From the NCBI GenBank assembly GCA_947497985.1, contig CANMIX010000018.1, positions 1-52,313 on the forward strand: DNA of 52,313 nt, in the 5' to 3' direction. The notes under the pieces were generated by a model, which was not told the origin of the DNA, ran no database searches, and was given only the letters and a program-made list of their open reading frames with translations. The stretch comes from an uncultured Paracoccaceae bacterium. Its GTDB lineage: Bacteria > Pseudomonadota > Alphaproteobacteria > Rhodobacterales > Rhodobacteraceae. Below, in pieces: positions 31,420-39,531 of the stretch. The position numbers were made by a program, and so were the translations under genes. Position 1 is the first letter of the stretch. Each line of letters opens with the position of its first letter.

Positions 31420-32223
31420 TTAACGTTGGCCGTTGAACACAAACAGCGCTTCACCGTTGATTTGATAGGCATTGATCAATGTTTCGGCCTTCTTTGACAC
31501 CAGCCAGTCTTCCAACTGCGCAGCTTGTTCTGTCTGCACATGCAGGTGCTGTGCGGCGTTCACCGGGATATAGGCGTATTGGTTGAACAACACCGGATCC
31601 CCGGAAAACAGCAACTCCAGATCCCCTTTGTTGCCAAAGTTCAGCCAGCTGGCGCGATCAGACATGATGTAAGCATCCATGCCAGCTGCCGTGTTCAGTG
31701 CGGCCCCCATGCCAGCGCCAACCGCCCGGTACCACGTTCCAAAACCTTCAGCATCCAGTGCTGCGGCGCTCCACAGGCTCAGCTCCTTCTTATGGGTGCC
31801 GCTGTCATCTCCTCGACTGACAAATGCGGCTTGGGTATCTGCAATCTTTTGCAGAGCCTCAGCCGCGTTTTCAGCGTCATGGATATGTGCAGCATCCCCC
31901 TTGGGGCCAACAAAGACAAAGTCGTTGTACATGATCTCACGCCGGTGCGTGCCATACCCGCCCGCCAAAAACGCCTCCTCAGCTGCCTTGGAGTGTACAA
32001 GGATTGCATCCACATCCCCGGCCTCGCCCAATCGGATCGCCTGTCCCGTGCCAACCACCAAAAGCTGCACATCCAGGTCGAGGTCTTTCTTGATCTCAGG
32101 CAGCAAAGCGTCGGCCAGTCCTGAATTGTGAAAGGACGTGGTGACGGCCAGTTTCATCTCGTCGGCCCAAGCGGCCGTGTGGAGCGTGACCGCGGCAAGC
32201 GCGCCCAAAAGTAGATGTTTCAT
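31420..32223 (-). CDS. tupA: Tungstate ABC transporter substrate-binding protein
   Basis: A 267-residue periplasmic binding protein. Signal peptide ending at AWA (about 19), then LAVTTSFHNSGLADALLPE and VSRGDDSGTHKKELSLW, the oxyanion-binding TTS(F/T)xxSGL and SRGDxSGTH motifs of TupA/ModA-like proteins. The SRGDDSGTH form is typical of TupA rather than ModA or sulfate-binding proteins. Nearby AEGFGTWYRAVGAGMG also fits TupA. The start overlaps the tupC stop by four bases. It is adjacent to formate dehydrogenase genes, consistent with W supply. Confidence 0.87.
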   Translation of the reverse strand: MKHLLLGALAAVTLHTAAWADEMKLAVTTSFHNSGLADALLPEIKKDLDLDVQLLVVGTGQAIRLGEAGDVDAILVHSKAAEEAFLAGGYGTHRREIMYNDFVFVGPKGDAAHIHDAENAAEALQKIADTQAAFVSRGDDSGTHKKELSLWSAAALDAEGFGTWYRAVGAGMGAALNTAAGMDAYIMSDRASWLNFGNKGDLELLFSGDPVLFNQYAYIPVNAAQHLHVQTEQAAQLEDWLVSKKAETLINAYQINGEALFVFNGQR

Positions 32224-32930
32224 TCGATAATGTCTCCTCTCAAAAACGCGCGTCCCTCATCTGTGTTTGGCCCGGCAAAGAAATCGCCAGCCGATTGATG
32301 TTCCTGGATCTGCCCTCGGGCGACCAGGATGATCTCGGTGGCCAGACGTGACGCCTGACCCAGGTTATGCGTCGACATTACCAACCGCGTGCCAGCGGCA
32401 ACCGCGTCCGTCAGCAGTGTCTCAATCTCACGGGTGGCTCGCCCATCAAGCGAGGCGCAGGGTTCATCTAGGAACAACACCTCTGGCTTGCGGATCAGAG
32501 CACGGGCGAGTGCCAGCTTTTGCCGCTCTCCGCCGGACAGCACATTGGCAGAACGATCTGCCGCGGCCTCTAACCCGATACGCGTGACCCAGTCCAAGGC
32601 CCGCGCGCGCGCGTCGCCACGCGGCACCCCGATCAGGCGCAGGGGATAGGCCACGTTGTCCACAACCGAACGGCGCATCATCACAGGCTGCTGGAACACA
32701 AAGGCTTGGCGTTCCTGCGCCTCTGCCACCGAACAATTCCATGTCACAGACCCGCCATTCAGGCGCACAATCCCATGCAACATCTTCAACAGTGAGGTTT
32801 TGCCCGCTCCGTTGGGGCCAATGACAATTGTGATCCCCTGACCGTCCAGCTGCAAATCAACCGGGCCGATCAACGCCTTACCCCGACGGCGCACGGTTGC
32901 ACCTTTGGCGATCAGTGGCAGCAAAGTCAT
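32220..32930 (-). CDS. tupC: Tungstate ABC transporter ATP-binding protein
   Basis: A 236-residue ATPase: Walker A GPNGAGKTS, Q-loop VFQQPVMMRRSVVDN, signature LSGGERQKLALARAL and Walker B VLFLDEPCASLD, with an H-loop STHNLGQ. It is translated from an ATG overlapping the tupB stop (TGATG) and overlaps tupA by four bases. A longer frame extends upstream into tupB and is spurious. The subtype matches ModC/TupC-like transporters; specificity follows TupA. Confidence 0.88.
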   Translation of the reverse strand: MTLLPLIAKGATVRRRGKALIGPVDLQLDGQGITIVIGPNGAGKTSLLKMLHGIVRLNGGSVTWNCSVAEAQERQAFVFQQPVMMRRSVVDNVAYPLRLIGVPRGDARARALDWVTRIGLEAAADRSANVLSGGERQKLALARALIRKPEVLFLDEPCASLDGRATREIETLLTDAVAAGTRLVMSTHNLGQASRLATEIILVARGQIQEHQSAGDFFAGPNTDEGRAFLRGDIIE

Positions 32931-33634
32931 CACCAACGCCCCGTTCGTTCGGTTTGTCCCAACCAGTGGATACAAAGGTTCACCGCAACCGCCAGCCCGA
33001 TCAGTACAAAGCCAAGTCCAAGCGCCAGCGCAAATTCTCCCTTGCCGGTTTCCAGCGCAATCGCCGTGGTCAAAACCCGTGTGTGATGGTCGATATTGCC
33101 ACCCACCACCATGATCGCGCCCACTTCGCCAATGGCGCGACCAAACCCGGCCAGCGCCGCCGTCAACAGTGCCCGACGCCCGTCCCACAACAGCGTCTTG
33201 ATCCGTTGGGTCTGACTTGTATGTAGCGAGATCAGAAGATCATGGTAATCGCTCCACAATTCCCGCAACGATTGATGCGCGATTGAGGCGATCAGTGGCA
33301 CAATGATAATCACCTGTGCGATGATCATGGCCGTCGGCGTAAACAGCAGGCCAAAAACCCCAAACGGTCCGGCCCGCGACAGCATCACATAGACGACCAA
33401 ACCCACCACCACCGGCGGCAAGCCCATCAATGCGTTCAAGACGGCAATGGTTGCTCGTCGCAGTCGAAACCGGCGCACCGCCAATATCGCAGCCAGCGGC
33501 AGGGCAATCACAGACGCAACCACAAGCGCCGTGAGCGTCACCCGTAAGGAGCGCAACGTGATTTCCACCAGATCCGCATCCAGTGTCACCACCAGCCAAA
33601 AGGCCTGTGCTATTCCCTCCCACAGTTCTGACAT
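32930..33634 (-). CDS. tupB: Tungstate ABC transporter permease
   Basis: A 234-residue inner-membrane protein with about five helices, e.g. TALVVASVIALPLAAILAV, VVVGLVVYVMLSRAG and TAMIIAQVIIIVPLIAS. The EAA cytoplasmic loop is AALAGFGRAIGEVGAIMVVGGN. The ATG at 33634 has GGGGAGG about 11 bases upstream, a slightly long spacing; a GTG/ATG 12 codons earlier is not preferred. It is the first gene of tupB-tupC-tupA. Confidence 0.86.
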   Translation of the reverse strand: MSELWEGIAQAFWLVVTLDADLVEITLRSLRVTLTALVVASVIALPLAAILAVRRFRLRRATIAVLNALMGLPPVVVGLVVYVMLSRAGPFGVFGLLFTPTAMIIAQVIIIVPLIASIAHQSLRELWSDYHDLLISLHTSQTQRIKTLLWDGRRALLTAALAGFGRAIGEVGAIMVVGGNIDHHTRVLTTAIALETGKGEFALALGLGFVLIGLAVAVNLCIHWLGQTERTGRW

Positions 33635-33669
33635 CGCAGCCGCGCCCCCTCCCCTGGCAAATCTCGGCA

Positions 33670-33684
33670 ATTGGTTACCAATTT
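33670..33684. promoter_or_regulatory. Perfect 7-1-7 palindrome before tupB
   Basis: AATTGGT-T-ACCAATT lies 36-50 bases upstream of the tupB start, immediately after a possible TATCTT -10 on the minus strand. Its position fits a repressor operator controlling tungstate uptake; it does not look like a ModE/Mo-box. Confidence 0.5.
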
Positions 33685-33839: not shown

Positions 33840-35384
33840 CTATTCAAACCACTTGGCCCAACCTTCAAGGTAATAACCAACCAGCGCATGAGATTGGAGC
33901 TGGTTGACCTCCACCTCAACACGGCCTGTGTCGGCAGAAAACACCTGCGCCTGTGTCCAAGTATCGTCACTGACGAACCGCAGATCATCCGGCCAAGTCA
34001 ACGGCCGGTCTGCGGGCGCATAGGGGGCTGCCATCACAAACCCCCAATCACCAAAACTGGGCACATAGGCGTGATAGGGCAAGGTCCACAGGTCTTCGCC
34101 AACCTTTACTGGATTGCGGGCCGCGCCCAATGTCTGCGCCACCGACCAAAAGGCCTCGCGCGCATAAAAGGGCGACCCTGCCTGCGTCACCATGATCCCC
34201 TGCGCGTTCAACCGTTCGACCAACAGATTGTAAAACGCGCGACTGTAGAGTTTGGACAAGGCCAGGTTTTTGGGGTCCGGCAAGTCGATGATCACCAGAT
34301 CATATTGCTCGCTGCCATGTTCGACAAATTGCCAGGCATCTTGGTTGTGGATTGTCACACGTGGATCACGCAGGGCACCGCTGTTCAAGGCCGCCAGATC
34401 GTCGTGGGTTTGAAAAATCTCTGTCACCCGCGGATCCAGATCCACCAGCGTGACCTGTTCGACATCGGCCCAGCGCAGCACCTCGCGCGCGGCCATGCCA
34501 TCGCCGCCGCCCAAGATCAGCACATGCGTGCGCCGACTGGCCAACGCCATAGCGGGCTGCACCAGCATTTCGTGGTAACGGTATTCATCAAAGCTGTCGA
34601 ATTGGATGGAATGATCCAGAAACAGGCGTGTACGGTCGCGAAACCGGGTCACGGTCACCTGTTGATAGGGCGTTGTTTCGCTGAAGATTATGTCGTCGTC
34701 ATACAGCGCTGCCTCGGCCACGGTAACCAAACGCTCGGACTGAACCAGCCCAGCGCCGGTCAAGATCAGCGCAAAGCCCCAGACGCCCCATTGGCTGCGT
34801 TGCGCATCACCGCGAAACATCCATAACGACAGACCCGCAACACAAAGGTTCAAGCCACCAAAGGCGAGGCTGGCCGACATCAGTCCCAGCTGGGGAACGA
34901 TCAGCAATGGAAAGGCCACCGATGCAGCAAGCGCGCCGACATAATCCACGCTGAGGACGTTTTCAAATCGGAACTCGGGCACGCCGATTTCCTTGAGAAC
35001 CCGCGCAATCAACGGGATCTCCATCCCTGACAGAATGCCAACAGCGATCAACAGGCCAAACAGTGGCAGCTCAACCGCGCCAGTCCACGCATAGGCATAG
35101 AACACCACCGGCGCGAGGAAACCACCCAAGATCCCCAACAGGATCTGCGCCCAGATGAACCCGCGCAAGGCATGGCCAACAAACCGGGACAGATAAGCGC
35201 CAACCCCCATGGCCGACAGGAAGACCCCAATCACCAAGGAGAATTGGCGCACGCTGTCGCCCAGCAGATAGCTTGAAAGCGTCGCCGCGATCAGCTCGTA
35301 GATCAGCCCGGCCACCGCCACCAGAAAGGTTGCGACCAACAGCCAGATTTCACGCGTGCGCGCGCCCGGGGGCGCTGCGTTCAT
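33840..35384 (-). CDS. Membrane-anchored spermidine-synthase-like protein
   Basis: A 514-residue fusion. Residues 13-225 have about seven hydrophobic helices (e.g. LLVATFLVAVAGLIYELIA, LFGLLIAVGILSGMEIPLI). Residues 235-510 are a polyamine aminopropyltransferase-like domain with DEYRYHEML (267-275), the decarboxy-SAM site GGGDGMAARE (292-301), LVDLDP (313-318) and IIDLPDP (365-371). The motif-bearing residues of spermidine synthase are thus largely kept, though IIDLPDP differs from the usual DSSDP. The domain faces the cytoplasm by the usual topology. The family includes enzymes of uncertain substrate that sit in DUF350/DUF4178 loci; plain spermidine production is not assured. It overlaps the DUF350 stop by four bases. 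Confidence 0.78.
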   Translation of the reverse strand: MNAAPPGARTREIWLLVATFLVAVAGLIYELIAATLSSYLLGDSVRQFSLVIGVFLSAMGVGAYLSRFVGHALRGFIWAQILLGILGGFLAPVVFYAYAWTGAVELPLFGLLIAVGILSGMEIPLIARVLKEIGVPEFRFENVLSVDYVGALAASVAFPLLIVPQLGLMSASLAFGGLNLCVAGLSLWMFRGDAQRSQWGVWGFALILTGAGLVQSERLVTVAEAALYDDDIIFSETTPYQQVTVTRFRDRTRLFLDHSIQFDSFDEYRYHEMLVQPAMALASRRTHVLILGGGDGMAAREVLRWADVEQVTLVDLDPRVTEIFQTHDDLAALNSGALRDPRVTIHNQDAWQFVEHGSEQYDLVIIDLPDPKNLALSKLYSRAFYNLLVERLNAQGIMVTQAGSPFYAREAFWSVAQTLGAARNPVKVGEDLWTLPYHAYVPSFGDWGFVMAAPYAPADRPLTWPDDLRFVSDDTWTQAQVFSADTGRVEVEVNQLQSHALVGYYLEGWAKWFE

Positions 35385-35605
35385 GACAGGATCACAGCCG
35401 CAATGATGATCGCAATCGACAAGAACAAAAAGCCGATCAGGATGGCCAGTGCGATGTTCTGGTCTTTTTCAATCTCTTTCAGGATTGGAAAAGGTGTCAT
35501 CCAGTCGATCATTTTCCAGACCAGGAACATCAGCACCACGCCAATGAAGGTGTAGAAAAACGTGCTGACGATCTCAGCCAGTTGGATAGCGGAAAAAAGG
35601 TCCAT
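35381..35605 (-). CDS. DUF350 (YjfL-like) membrane protein
   Basis: A 74-residue protein with two hydrophobic helices, about 13-33 (STFFYTFIGVVLMFLVWKM) and 50-72 (ALAILIGFLFLSIAIIIAA), separated by a polar loop. This is the half-length form of DUF350 modules. Function unknown; the family has been linked to envelope-stress operons. GGGGGA precedes the ATG. It overlaps the synthase gene and follows the 52-aa gene by 11 bases. Confidence 0.78.
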   Translation of the reverse strand: MDLFSAIQLAEIVSTFFYTFIGVVLMFLVWKMIDWMTPFPILKEIEKDQNIALAILIGFLFLSIAIIIAAVILS

Positions 35606-35616
35606 AACGTCCCCCG

Positions 35617-35775
35617 TTATTTGACATTGCCACCGAAACCGCGACCACCGCTGGCGGCCCGGATCGAGTTTGAGATATCCCGGTTTTCACCGCCGATCCC
35701 GTTGTAAGAAAGGTAACTGGCCCCCACGACAATGGCGCAGGACATTACCAGAAAAATGATGCGGAACAGGTTCAT
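35617..35775 (-). CDS. 52-aa single-helix membrane protein of the DUF4178-DUF350 operon
   Basis: A short frame read by eye between DUF4178 and DUF350: MNLFRIIFLVMSCAIVVGAS, then polar Gly/Asn-rich ISNSIRAASGGRGFGGNVK. It has one hydrophobic helix (4-22). It starts three bases after the DUF4178 stop and ends 11 bases before DUF350, and the sequence is unlike the two large neighbours, so it is likely translated within the operon. Function unknown; the Gly-rich tail might interact with the membrane or with DUF350. Confidence 0.7.
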   Translation of the reverse strand: MNLFRIIFLVMSCAIVVGASYLSYNGIGGENRDISNSIRAASGGRGFGGNVK

Positions 35776-35778
35776 GGT

Positions 35779-37077
35779 CTAATCATCATCCTCATCCACC
35801 CAATCGCTGTCACGCCAGCGGGCCGCATTGTGCCGATATGCACGCCACCACGGCCATCCGGCCAACAAACCAAAAGCCGCAGCCGCAAAAACCATCCAAC
35901 GGATCACTTTGCGTCCCGCATCTACAGACACAGACAGTTGGTTCCATTGGCTTGGTCTTATCGCTCCGGACCCGGTCCACGCCCCTTCGCTATCGACATC
36001 AATGTAGAGTGTATAGTCACCATCCATCGGCGCTCGGAACGTGGCCTTGGCACGGTTGCTGCCTTCACTCCAATTTCCATCCGCGTCACGACCGGCATAG
36101 CGTTCGACCGCGCGGACGGTGCTGAACAGCACTTCGTCTTCTGGATCGCTTACTTCCAGTTCAAATTCGGACCACGTGTTGATCCCGTTGCCTGCCAGCC
36201 GCAGCTGTACCAACTCCCCTGCGGCAATGCCCTCTAACACCTGCTCAAACGGCAGATCGGCGCGGGACACCGACACCCGTCCCAAGATATCGCGGCCGGA
36301 CTGGCCTGCAAATACACCGGCGAGGACCAGGCACAGGACGGCAAAAATGGCGCTTGTCTTGATCTGAAACCCTGCATTTGGACCCGCCTTGAAGGACTGC
36401 AACGGATGCACGCGCGACGGTGCAAATCCGGGATCAATGCCAAAACCTTGCTTCACATCATCCGCGCTCAGATAGGTGGTCTGCTCCACCTCACGCTCGC
36501 GCCCGGTGGCGGAAAAGGACAACATCCGCGTATCGCCCAGGACGGTAACGGTTGAGGTCTTATCCGATTTGCGCGGCTGCCAGGAGAATTCACCCTCGGC
36601 ATAGCGGATCTCACTGGTGCTGCTCTCGTAGTATTTGAACTGCTCCCCGTTGTCCCACAGGCTCGGCCGGTGGTTGGCCCGCGCGACCTGATGGTCAGAC
36701 ATCCACAATGGTCTGCGATAGCGGCGGGAAAAAGTGCAGTGGCCTTGTTCAAGCGTTAACCAAGCATAGCCATGGGTCGGAGAATACAATTGGTGGTCAA
36801 GCCATGCATAAGTTTTACCGGCCCAGCGTTCAACCTGCTCCAACAGGCCAATCACCGTATAGTCGACACCCAGGATCGTTCCTGTTGTACCGATAGGAAA
36901 GGGCGTCTGCGGGCGCGGCACATCATTGAAACGCTTCAGCGCGCGGTAATTGTCCGTCGCGTCCAGCTTGGTTCCGCAATAGGGGCAAATATGGGTTGTG
37001 ACCCGACCGCCGCCCAAAACATCCAAGCCAGCTCCGCATGAGGTGCAGTTGATCGCTTTGACGGCCGTGAGGGTCAT
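35779..37077 (-). CDS. DUF4178 protein with zinc ribbon and periplasmic domain
   Basis: A 432-residue protein. A zinc ribbon (Cys11, 14, 31, 34) precedes a DUF4178-like region (60-225; PIGTTGTILGVDYTVIGLL, YAWLDHQLYSPTHGYAWLTLEQGH). A first helix (241-258) leads to a beta-rich domain (about 265-390; FELEVSDPEDEVLFSTV, DGDYTLYIDVDSEG) and a second helix (393-411) before an acidic tail WVDEDDD. Function unknown. It overlaps the first DUF4178 gene by four bases and is followed by the 52-aa gene after three bases, so all are one operon. Confidence 0.78.
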   Translation of the reverse strand: MTLTAVKAINCTSCGAGLDVLGGGRVTTHICPYCGTKLDATDNYRALKRFNDVPRPQTPFPIGTTGTILGVDYTVIGLLEQVERWAGKTYAWLDHQLYSPTHGYAWLTLEQGHCTFSRRYRRPLWMSDHQVARANHRPSLWDNGEQFKYYESSTSEIRYAEGEFSWQPRKSDKTSTVTVLGDTRMLSFSATGREREVEQTTYLSADDVKQGFGIDPGFAPSRVHPLQSFKAGPNAGFQIKTSAIFAVLCLVLAGVFAGQSGRDILGRVSVSRADLPFEQVLEGIAAGELVQLRLAGNGINTWSEFELEVSDPEDEVLFSTVRAVERYAGRDADGNWSEGSNRAKATFRAPMDGDYTLYIDVDSEGAWTGSGAIRPSQWNQLSVSVDAGRKVIRWMVFAAAAFGLLAGWPWWRAYRHNAARWRDSDWVDEDDD

Positions 37078-37691
37078 GACAGCACCTCAACCTCGAACGG
37101 ATCAAACCAGCGGCCCATGAACCAGGAATATTGATCGCCGTCAATTTCTGCGGACAGAAGGCCGCCATCCGCCCCTTGTAGGTTTACATATCGGTAGCTC
37201 TCTCCGACGTGCAGGGGTTCATCAAAACTGCCACGCAGGGCGATGCATTCACCAGTTGCATCCTCAACCACCCGAAAGCTTTCGCCATCATATTTGATGC
37301 CATGGCCAAGTTTCAGATAGCCATCAAAGCGGGGCCAATTGGCGGGCTGAATTTCCTGTTGCAGGATGATGTCACCCTCATCCACCGAGATCCAAACCGG
37401 AGCGCCTGCATGGTCCAGCGCGCAGAATTCATCCCATGTGCCACGCCCATAGGAAAACCGCGCGTGTCCAACGATATGATAGCTGCCACGCCCCAATCGG
37501 ATATGGCTGTTCAGTCCAAAAAGCAGCGGCACCTCGTGCATCACGCCCTGTTCACCCGCCATCTCGGCCGCTTGATCGGACAGGAAAAGCGACGTCCCAC
37601 AGGAGCCACAGGTCACCATCTTGACCGTCTGAAATGCTGGCGCGACGGAATTGCCGCAGTTGGGACACTGAAAATCGTGCATGTGAGCCAT
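37074..37691 (-). CDS. Soluble DUF4178 protein with N-terminal zinc ribbon
   Basis: A 205-residue protein: zinc ribbon CPNCGNS...CGSCGTS (Cys9, 12, 28, 31) then a DUF4178-type beta-rich module (LGRGSYHIVGHARFSYGRGTWDEFCALDH, LGHGIKYDGESFRVVEDATG). There is no membrane helix. ATG 37691 is chosen because upstream sequence reads like non-coding DNA; ATG 37682 is close. It is the first gene of the operon to the synthase. Two DUF4178 proteins side by side suggest a paired or heteromeric unit. Confidence 0.75.
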   Translation of the reverse strand: MAHMHDFQCPNCGNSVAPAFQTVKMVTCGSCGTSLFLSDQAAEMAGEQGVMHEVPLLFGLNSHIRLGRGSYHIVGHARFSYGRGTWDEFCALDHAGAPVWISVDEGDIILQQEIQPANWPRFDGYLKLGHGIKYDGESFRVVEDATGECIALRGSFDEPLHVGESYRYVNLQGADGGLLSAEIDGDQYSWFMGRWFDPFEVEVLS

Positions 37692-38079: not shown

Positions 38080-39531
38080 ATGGTGTCACGCGTTATTCCT
38101 GTAGATCACTTCGATCTGGTGTTATTTGGGGCGACCGGCGATCTTGCCCGCCGTAAAATCCTGCCCAGCCTGTTTCATAGATTTATCATCGGCCAGTTCG
38201 ATGAAAACTCGCGCGTTATTGGCGCATCGCGCAGCGCGATGACCCAGGCAGAGTTCCGCGAATTGGTGTCTGCTGCGCTGAAAGAATTCGCTCATCCCGA
38301 AGACGCGACCCCAGATAATATTGCAGCCTTTGTCGATATTCTGGATTATGTCGCCATCGACGCCAAAAGCGAACAAGGCTGGGCTGATCTGGCCAAGCCG
38401 CTGCGCGACAATGTGGTGCGCGCCTTTTACCTGTCGGTGGCTCCCAGCCTGTTTGCCGATATCGCCGGACGTCTGAAGTCCACCGGCATCGCAACCGATG
38501 ACAGCCGTGTGGTCGTCGAGAAACCCTTTGGACATAACCTTGCGTCTGCCAAAGCCTTGAACGCCGCCCTCAGCGCGCATTTCGAAGAGCATCAGATTTA
38601 TCGCATCGACCACTATCTGGGCAAAGAGACCGTTCAGAACCTGATGGCCCTGCGCTTTGCCAACTCTCTGTTTGAGCCGCTGTGGAATTCCTCGCAGATC
38701 GACCATGTGCAGATCACGGTTGCTGAAAGCATCGGTGTTGCGGGACGTGGCGAATATTATGACAAATCAGGTGCCATGCGCGACATGGTGCAGAACCACC
38801 TGATGCAGCTGCTGTGCCTCACCGCGATGGAACCGCCTGCGCGCTTTACGCCAAACTCGGTACGCAACGAAAAGCTAAAAGTGATCGAGGCGCTGAAACC
38901 GGTCACACAGGATGACATTGCCCGTGGTCAATATCGCGCGCGTGAAGGTGGCGACAGCTACCGCGAACATGCAGGCGACTCAAACAGCACCACCGAAAGC
39001 TTTGTTGCGATGAAGGTCGAAGTGGCGAACTGGCGTTGGGCTGGGACGCCATTTTACCTGCGCACAGGCAAATGCCTGCGCCAGCGCGCGTCCGAGATTG
39101 CGGTGTTCTTCCGCAACCCACCCCACAATATCTTTGAAGGCGACGCGCCTGCGGCCGGCAACTGTCTGGTGATCCGCCTGCAACCGGACGAAGGCATAAC
39201 CCTGCACACCACGATCAAAGACCCCGGTCCCGGTGGGATGCGCCTGACCACGGCAAAACTGGACATGACCTTTGCCGAGAGCCTGCCCGAAGCCGGTCGT
39301 CCCCAAGATGCCTATGAACGGCTGATCATGGATGTCATTCGTGGCAACCAGACCCTGTTCATGCGCGGCGACGAGGTTGAGGCAGCCTGGGCCTGGGCTG
39401 ATCCCATTATCGAAGGGTTTGCGGACAGCAACAAGGCGCCACAAGCCTATGACCAGGGCGGCTCTGGCCCGGATGATTCACTGCTGTTGATGCACCGTGA
39501 CGAGCGCCGCTGGCGCGATATCGGCGCGTGA
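38080..39531 (+). CDS. zwf: Glucose-6-phosphate 1-dehydrogenase
   Basis: A 483-residue enzyme oxidising glucose 6-phosphate to 6-phosphogluconolactone with NADP. The NADP-binding LFGATGDLARRKILPSLF and the substrate motif RIDHYLGKETVQN are intact, as is EKPFGHN. It heads zwf-edd-eda, the oxidative entry of the Entner-Doudoroff pathway that Roseobacters favour for glucose. A 6-phosphogluconolactonase gene (pgl) is not in this operon. Upstream candidate operator and promoter are listed separately. Confidence 0.97.
   Translation: MVSRVIPVDHFDLVLFGATGDLARRKILPSLFHRFIIGQFDENSRVIGASRSAMTQAEFRELVSAALKEFAHPEDATPDNIAAFVDILDYVAIDAKSEQGWADLAKPLRDNVVRAFYLSVAPSLFADIAGRLKSTGIATDDSRVVVEKPFGHNLASAKALNAALSAHFEEHQIYRIDHYLGKETVQNLMALRFANSLFEPLWNSSQIDHVQITVAESIGVAGRGEYYDKSGAMRDMVQNHLMQLLCLTAMEPPARFTPNSVRNEKLKVIEALKPVTQDDIARGQYRAREGGDSYREHAGDSNSTTESFVAMKVEVANWRWAGTPFYLRTGKCLRQRASEIAVFFRNPPHNIFEGDAPAAGNCLVIRLQPDEGITLHTTIKDPGPGGMRLTTAKLDMTFAESLPEAGRPQDAYERLIMDVIRGNQTLFMRGDEVEAAWAWADPIIEGFADSNKAPQAYDQGGSGPDDSLLLMHRDERRWRDIGA

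Follow-up and report, generated by a model that had tools for sequence, protein, structure and literature searches.

In the genome of an uncultured marine Paracoccaceae bacterium (GCA_947497985.1), a stretch of 52,313 nucleotides of contig CANMIX010000018.1, hereafter the window, carries at 33840-37691 an operon of five genes, which encode two DUF4178 proteins, a membrane peptide of 52 amino acids, a DUF350 protein and a membrane-bound spermidine-synthase-like enzyme. We favour, with some confidence, the view that this synthase is an aminopropyltransferase dependent on decarboxylated S-adenosylmethionine (dcSAM), and that it acts not on putrescine but on a membrane-anchored tail rich in glycine, serine and arginine, whose C-terminal lysine is the acceptor. 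An earlier note on this DNA had suggested a polyamine-type modification made at the membrane, and this is still the best reading; the conserved C-terminal lysine of the 52-amino-acid peptide was overlooked there, and it is this residue that we think receives the modification. The proposal of lysine as acceptor, the side of the membrane and the number of aminopropyl groups added are drawn by inference from sequence comparison and a structural model, while the operon, its conservation, the co-occurrence with SpeD, the Lys-ended tail and the aminopropyltransferase fold and motifs were computed directly.

A small tail that ends in lysine

The peptide ends in GNVK. Among relatives, the small membrane protein encoded between the second DUF4178 gene and the DUF350 gene drifts freely except for its Gly/Ser/Arg-rich end and the final lysine. 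A rule about this lysine was derived from set A (81 loci: the window and the best 80 of 119 relatives) and was then applied to set B, 44 loci from the 43 phylum genomes over the synthase cut-off (G402 has two, and the locus of G000 itself was excluded), and to set C, nine family loci; after the collapsing of four synthases in sets B and C that repeat those of set A, the 134 loci of the three sets become 130 distinct ones. Candidates were picked by a rule blind to the last residue, which asked for an N-terminal hydrophobic stretch, no second helix and a G+S-rich end, near the synthase and on the same strand. Where a locus had such a candidate, the nearest one ended in lysine in 60 of 62 cases in set A, 15 of 15 in set B and 7 of 7 in set C, versus 10 of 104 in the control (candidates on the opposite strand or at a distance above 5 kb). 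A broader rule gave lysine in 99 of the 134 loci, aspartate (11) and arginine (8) being the next commonest, with lysine in 12 of 120 controls.

After inspection, wider fetches and the collapsing of equal synthases, 119 of the 130 distinct loci have a Lys-ended tail. The script rule missed the tail in twenty-four of the 134 loci, which were added on visual inspection, three of these only after a wider fetch, and the tail of L025 was added since its synthase equals that of L228. The tail gene lies on the strand opposite to the synthase in L183, L189 and L225. The remaining 11 loci consist of four with a Gly-Gly-ended protein and a ligase, and seven with neither, three of which (L045, L053, L223) are at contig ends. 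No qualifying Arg-ended open reading frame (ORF) replaces the tail in any of these seven. It is to be noted how the tails avoid lysine elsewhere. In the 99 unique Lys-ended tails, to which these counts apply as the tails were picked by their final lysine, the preceding residue is G in 64, V in 21, H in 9 and I in 5, and the 14 positions upstream of that residue hold 189 arginines versus 8 lysines. The lysine share of lysine plus arginine in the synthases of the same loci is 34%, and 57.5% in loci below 48% GC, where the tails hold 5 lysines versus 65 arginines. The final lysine seems to be needed for its primary amine; if charge alone counted, arginine would serve as well.

The tail is borne by at least five kinds of carrier protein. 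Among them are peptides of about 49-100 amino acids; DUF4247-type proteins of 159-256 amino acids in Bacillota and Nocardioides (L072 and L079 by Pfam; L073, L074 and L083 by similarity to L072); lipoprotein-like proteins of 311-387 amino acids in gammaproteobacteria, mostly with PspA nearby; and DUF4178 itself, where no separate peptide is seen. Eight Lys-tailed DUF4178 fusions that were examined have one helix before the tail, while in six DUF4178 proteins encoded alongside a peptide there are two helices and the Lys tail is missing; a 273-amino-acid DUF4178-like protein (L205) has a Lys end and three helices. A protein search with the 52-amino-acid peptide gave three matches, and a DUF4247 search gave eight, of which six end in GSGK or GFGK. 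The start of the other two (P0009, P0012) resembles read-through sequencing adapter, and they look like chimeras.

Two further arrangements were seen. In three Rhodobacteraceae loci (L144, L145, L146, from G056, G058, G082), a second operon type is made of SpeD, a protein of 428-437 amino acids, a Lys-ended membrane protein of about 200 amino acids and the membrane synthase; in L146 the 428-437-amino-acid protein is a rhomboid-acetyltransferase fusion, and neither DUF4178 nor DUF350 was found in the fetched stretch of the three. In eleven spirochaete loci (L059, L061, L064, L065, L067, L068, L070, L071, L077, L078, L081), DUF350 has a C-terminal extension that is also Lys-ended, and the same loci encode a separate Lys-ended peptide. 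Is the extension a second acceptor?

The four Gly-Gly loci (L058, L075, L076, L082) hold a GSP_synth-type ATP-grasp gene (by Pfam in L075, by similarity in the rest), and their partner protein ends in Gly-Gly, not in lysine. This ligase was found, by similarity, in these 4 of 134 loci only, and neither in the window stretch nor in the other loci; the 52-amino-acid peptide likewise does not have the Gly-Gly end that a peptide-spermidine ligase would use. The exception supports the lysine rule, as the four ligase loci swap lysine for Gly-Gly. In E. coli K-12, YjfM ends in Gly-Gly and is encoded beside yjfL (DUF350) and yjfC (annotated peptide--spermidine ligase), with no synthase; E. coli YjfC and YgiC are reportedly peptide-spermidine ligases, going by the title of a 2023 study of Pederick et al. 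Thus, the ligase branch appears to couple a finished polyamine to a C-terminal glycine, whereas in the synthase branch the polyamine appears to be assembled on a genetically encoded lysine.

The operon, the enzyme and its donor

Genes were taken from simple ORF calls, and the families in the window were assigned by Pfam and NCBIfam profiles, which agreed. The features are as follows.

37074-37691, minus strand: DUF4178 protein A, 205 amino acids, with an N-terminal zinc ribbon (CPNCG...CGSC) and a DUF4178 domain (PF13785, 67.8 bits, residues 64-198, cut-off 25)
35779-37077, minus strand: DUF4178 protein B, 432 amino acids, with a zinc ribbon, a DUF4178 domain (PF13785, 49.7 bits, cut-off 25) and an acidic C-terminus
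35617-35775, minus strand: 52-amino-acid membrane peptide, one helix and then a Gly/Ser/Arg-rich tail with final lysine, the proposed acceptor (from the ORF and Lys-ended counterparts elsewhere)
35620-35622, minus strand: codon AAA of the C-terminal lysine, the proposed modified residue (from sequence and conservation), with stop codon TAA at 35617-35619
35381-35605, minus strand: DUF350 protein, 74 amino acids, small membrane protein of the YjfL family (PF03994, 46.8 bits, cut-off 26)
33840-35384, minus strand: membrane-bound spermidine-synthase-like aminopropyltransferase, 514 amino acids (NF002956/PRK03612, 621.8 bits, cut-off 472, residues 9-512)
34743-35363, minus strand: membrane domain of the synthase, residues 8-214, read as seven helices (from model helices and hydropathy)
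33840-34712, minus strand: aminopropyltransferase domain of the synthase, residues 225-514, predicted extracytoplasmic

The five-gene operon was confirmed exactly as the earlier note had placed it, with all ORFs on the minus strand, and its DUF4178, DUF350 and spermidine synthase identities are borne out by scores above the cut-offs; the synthase also matches Spermine_synth in Pfam (117.7 bits, cut-off 22.9). DUF4178 protein B has two predicted membrane helices (242-258 and 391-407), and the 52-amino-acid ORF has no Pfam or NCBIfam match at E <= 1. The two DUF4178 genes overlap by 4 bases, gaps of 3 and 11 bases separate the 52-amino-acid ORF from DUF4178 protein B and DUF350, respectively, and DUF350 and the synthase overlap by 4 bases. 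The synthase is 89% identical to its counterpart in Epibacterium ulvae, and its closest relatives, among the best 80 of 119, are marine Rhodobacteraceae. All 26 Rhodobacteraceae-type loci examined (the window and L005-L029) have DUF350 and two or more DUF4178 genes no further than 5 kb from the synthase. The gene order DUF4178-DUF4178-DUF350-synthase, whose loss in relatives would have spoken against the earlier note, is kept in 25 of the 26 by script, the exception (L025) having an over-extended synthase frame. Both the position of the 52-amino-acid ORF and its terminal lysine are conserved among these loci, which support a conserved membrane operon.

The synthase has a SpeE-like fold and the dcSAM motifs D-x-x-D-P and GGGDG (the alignment rows of the fold comparison cover mainly residues 220-492), which is in favour of the earlier note. 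In an AlphaFold model (pLDDT 93.1, pTM 0.71), the membrane domain shows helices at 8-41, 44-68, 72-101 (broken), 105-133, 140-189 and 196-214, and the helix at 140-189 is counted as two because it is too long for a single crossing. On which side of the membrane does the catalytic domain then lie? Lysine and arginine are in excess on the side of the N-terminus and loops 2, 4 and 6 in 64 of 64 aligned synthases. As seven crossings with the N-terminus inside would leave the catalytic domain outside, it is predicted from the model to be extracytoplasmic, and the cytoplasmic placement of the earlier note conflicts with this prediction by the positive-inside rule. The tail proteins show an N-in pattern in 67 of 78, the opposite pattern in 5 and a tie in 6. 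The enzyme would thus encounter the tail outside the cytoplasm, and the supply of dcSAM becomes the main puzzle. E30, E122, D147 and Y148 are invariant in the membrane domain of the aligned synthases, and our guess is that dcSAM passes through this seven-helix domain.

Where does dcSAM come from? The earlier note found no SpeD gene, and this holds for the window but not for the genome, which encodes SpeD on contig C4. The system was wrongly called self-contained, because SpeD, the expected dcSAM source, is encoded on a separate contig; a donor other than dcSAM, considered for the missing SpeD, is rejected on the same ground. Among 120 family genomes, all 26 that have an aminopropyltransferase (PF01564 matches below 55 bits were not scored as such) also have SpeD, including the 9 whose sole aminopropyltransferase is the membrane type; of the 94 without, 1 has it. 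The ESH/H/C residues have catalytic roles in SpeD, and this motif is legible in eight of these nine genomes; that of G077 was not read by the pattern used. By the cut-offs used, the sole SpeD homologue without an aminopropyltransferase is in G042 (C55:295343-295606); its match is weak (78 bits), and it may belong to the neofunctionalised SpeD decarboxylases of PMC10407285.

The host has a separate spermidine route in a cluster of SpeA, a saccharopine-dehydrogenase-type CASDH and CASDC. Strong CASDC matches (at least 383 bits) were found in 5 of the 9 membrane-only genomes, in none of the 17 with canonical SpeE (Fisher p 0.002 between these two groups) and in 40 of the 94 other family genomes; matches below 383 bits were left out, including that of G064 (canonical SpeE) at 279.6. 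Thus, in at least these five hosts the membrane enzyme seems to have a purpose of its own. It was rejected as a stand-in for spermidine synthase in the host, where the carboxyspermidine route is kept, and the rejection is limited to the host, as four of the nine membrane-only genomes have no strong CASDC match. The system does not fit a canonical soluble SpeD-SpeE pathway, given the membrane domain, speD on contig C4 and the SpeA-CASDH-CASDC route. In eight genomes of the phylum with the membrane synthase (G422, G390, G298, G350, G402, G378, G380, G267), a eukaryote-type class-2 S-adenosylmethionine decarboxylase (AdoMetDC) was seen.

On its left side in window coordinates, the operon is flanked by a three-gene ABC transporter-like set (31420-33670) with ORFs for a solute-binding protein (PBP_like_2), an ATPase-like and a permease-like protein; two were scanned, and the solute-binding protein alone scored above the Pfam cut-off. 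The set resembles a transporter of the tungstate/molybdate type. A glucose-6-phosphate dehydrogenase gene (38080-39531) lies on the right side.

How the lysine might be used

A possible sequence of events is as follows. SpeD from the other contig would make dcSAM, which would reach the outside perhaps via the seven-helix domain. The 52-amino-acid peptide would sit with its N-terminus in and its C-terminus out, so that the end of the tail is in the periplasm, and the catalytic domain on the same side would aminopropylate the terminal lysine one or more times. The product would be a tail with a polyamine cap, on the outer face of the inner membrane, with DUF350 and the zinc-ribbon DUF4178 proteins as assembly or control partners.

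What else could enzyme and lysine do? The synthase might make a small polyamine at the membrane, such as a tetraamine from spermidine or an aminopropylated lipid head group, and the lysine peptide only bind the product as subunit or sensor. Its motif aspartates and fold do match soluble enzymes, and the Gly-Gly loci have the same synthase with no Lys tail; but the final residue is lysine in almost every locus, no qualifying Arg-ended ORF stands in for it in the seven loci without a Lys tail, and lysine is avoided inside the tail, which suggests chemistry at the residue itself, and a fusion of this kind, in the work of Li in 2019, reportedly gave no spermidine and did not complement a spermidine synthase mutant. 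We regard such a role as unlikely. Less likely again, the terminal lysine serves for anchoring, its amine being linked to peptidoglycan or to some other polymer of the envelope as in Braun's lipoprotein, while the synthase has a different target within the assembly. The tails have a primary-amine end predicted outside the cytoplasm, 10 of 78 tail proteins have a lipobox-like motif, and the 52-amino-acid peptide has a C-terminal lysine of the Braun type, with no lipobox seen by eye. Anchoring fits poorly with a Lys tail that tracks the synthase across differing carriers, and with the Gly-Gly/ligase alternative, which indicates polyamine chemistry at the C-terminus.

It is very improbable that the operon is a Psp-type membrane-stress module that only senses the level of polyamines and acts through PspA. 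The PspA link of the earlier note is real, since it has been proposed in PMC11237479 and 26 of the 130 distinct loci have PspA at no more than 5 kb; 19 have a band-7 protein at that distance, never together with PspA, and the two may be alternative partners. This host, however, has no PspA match in its whole genome (assembly 99.1% complete; 9 of 14 controls positive), and in seven family genomes with DUF4178, PspA is absent from four and on another contig in three. Therefore, PspA as a required part was rejected.

Several points weigh against the lysine as acceptor. Braun-type lipoproteins, as mentioned above, use a C-terminal lysine to bind peptidoglycan. In four loci with adequate flanks (L050, L069, L214, L217), no tail of either the Lys or the Gly-Gly type was seen near the synthase; the contig of L217 (L236) does hold two Lys-ended ORFs, at least 14 kb from the synthase, which were left uncounted. 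All three AdoMetDC types tested are absent from G156 and G176 (2 of 44 genomes in the phylum count), and in at least three of the eight genomes with the class-2 type (G422, G380, G402) its gene is no more than 3 kb from one for a soluble SpeE-like protein, which it may serve. As the Gly-Gly loci hold the same synthase family, the acceptor cannot always be a protein lysine; there the enzyme might lengthen a polyamine that is already attached. No coordinates were used for the helix count, in which 140-189 was split in two, and we know of no precedent for an extracytoplasmic dcSAM pool.

With lysine still preferred as acceptor in the host, it is quite possible, though less likely than not, that the modification is widespread in bacteria: a synthase domain outside, fed with dcSAM via its own seven-helix domain, uses the C-terminal lysine of a dedicated tail as the base on which a polyamine is assembled, and a parallel Gly-Gly/ATP-grasp branch reaches the same capped end by an amide bond. 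If true, polyamine decoration of membrane proteins via genetically encoded Lys tails occurs in many bacterial phyla, AdoMet decarboxylase, DUF350, DUF4178, DUF4247 and PspA operons are linked in one chemistry, and a large group of unnamed envelope genes is explained by a new mode of bacterial envelope modification. The conserved lysine offers a concrete and cheap test in cultured genera, for example Leisingera and Phaeobacter (L008, L010-L012) and Shewanella, of which S. oneidensis MR-1 carries a published example of the cluster (AAN56744-AAN56747).

Relation to known systems

The operon type is known, and the host version is a PspA-free member of it; the Lys-tail rule and the acceptor hypothesis are new within the literature searched, in which no earlier description of a C-terminal Lys tail was found, subscription papers being poorly covered. 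To our knowledge, the question of what membrane spermidine-synthase fusions act on dates back to at least 2019, when Li et al. in Biochem J reportedly described an AdoMetDC with a membrane protein-spermidine synthase fusion and left the acceptor open. The enzyme here is of the same class with the same SpeD and DUF350 associations, and a candidate acceptor is now added. The E. coli YjfL-YjfM-YjfC/YgiC system likewise has a DUF350 neighbour and a Gly/Ser/Arg-rich protein whose C-terminus is a plausible polyamine site, but an ATP-grasp ligase and a Gly-Gly end take the place of the aminopropyltransferase and the Lys end. Hypusine (in eIF5A) and silaffin carry polyamines on protein lysines, as proposed here, although those lysines are internal, are modified by other enzymes and do not belong to bacterial membrane peptides.

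The closest relative is the PspA/CesT-Tir operon with DUF350, DUF4178, a lipoprotein and a 7TM-spermine synthase (Ravi et al., 2024; PMC11237479), in whose main text the word lysine does not occur. The host operon differs in having no PspA, two separate DUF4178 genes and a 52-amino-acid partner without visible lipobox, and shares DUF350, DUF4178, the 7TM synthase and a small membrane-anchored partner. The same paper describes a variant with DUF4247 and DUF2617; the window has only a helix and a tail in place of such a partner, and the DUF4247-type partners are also Lys-ended.

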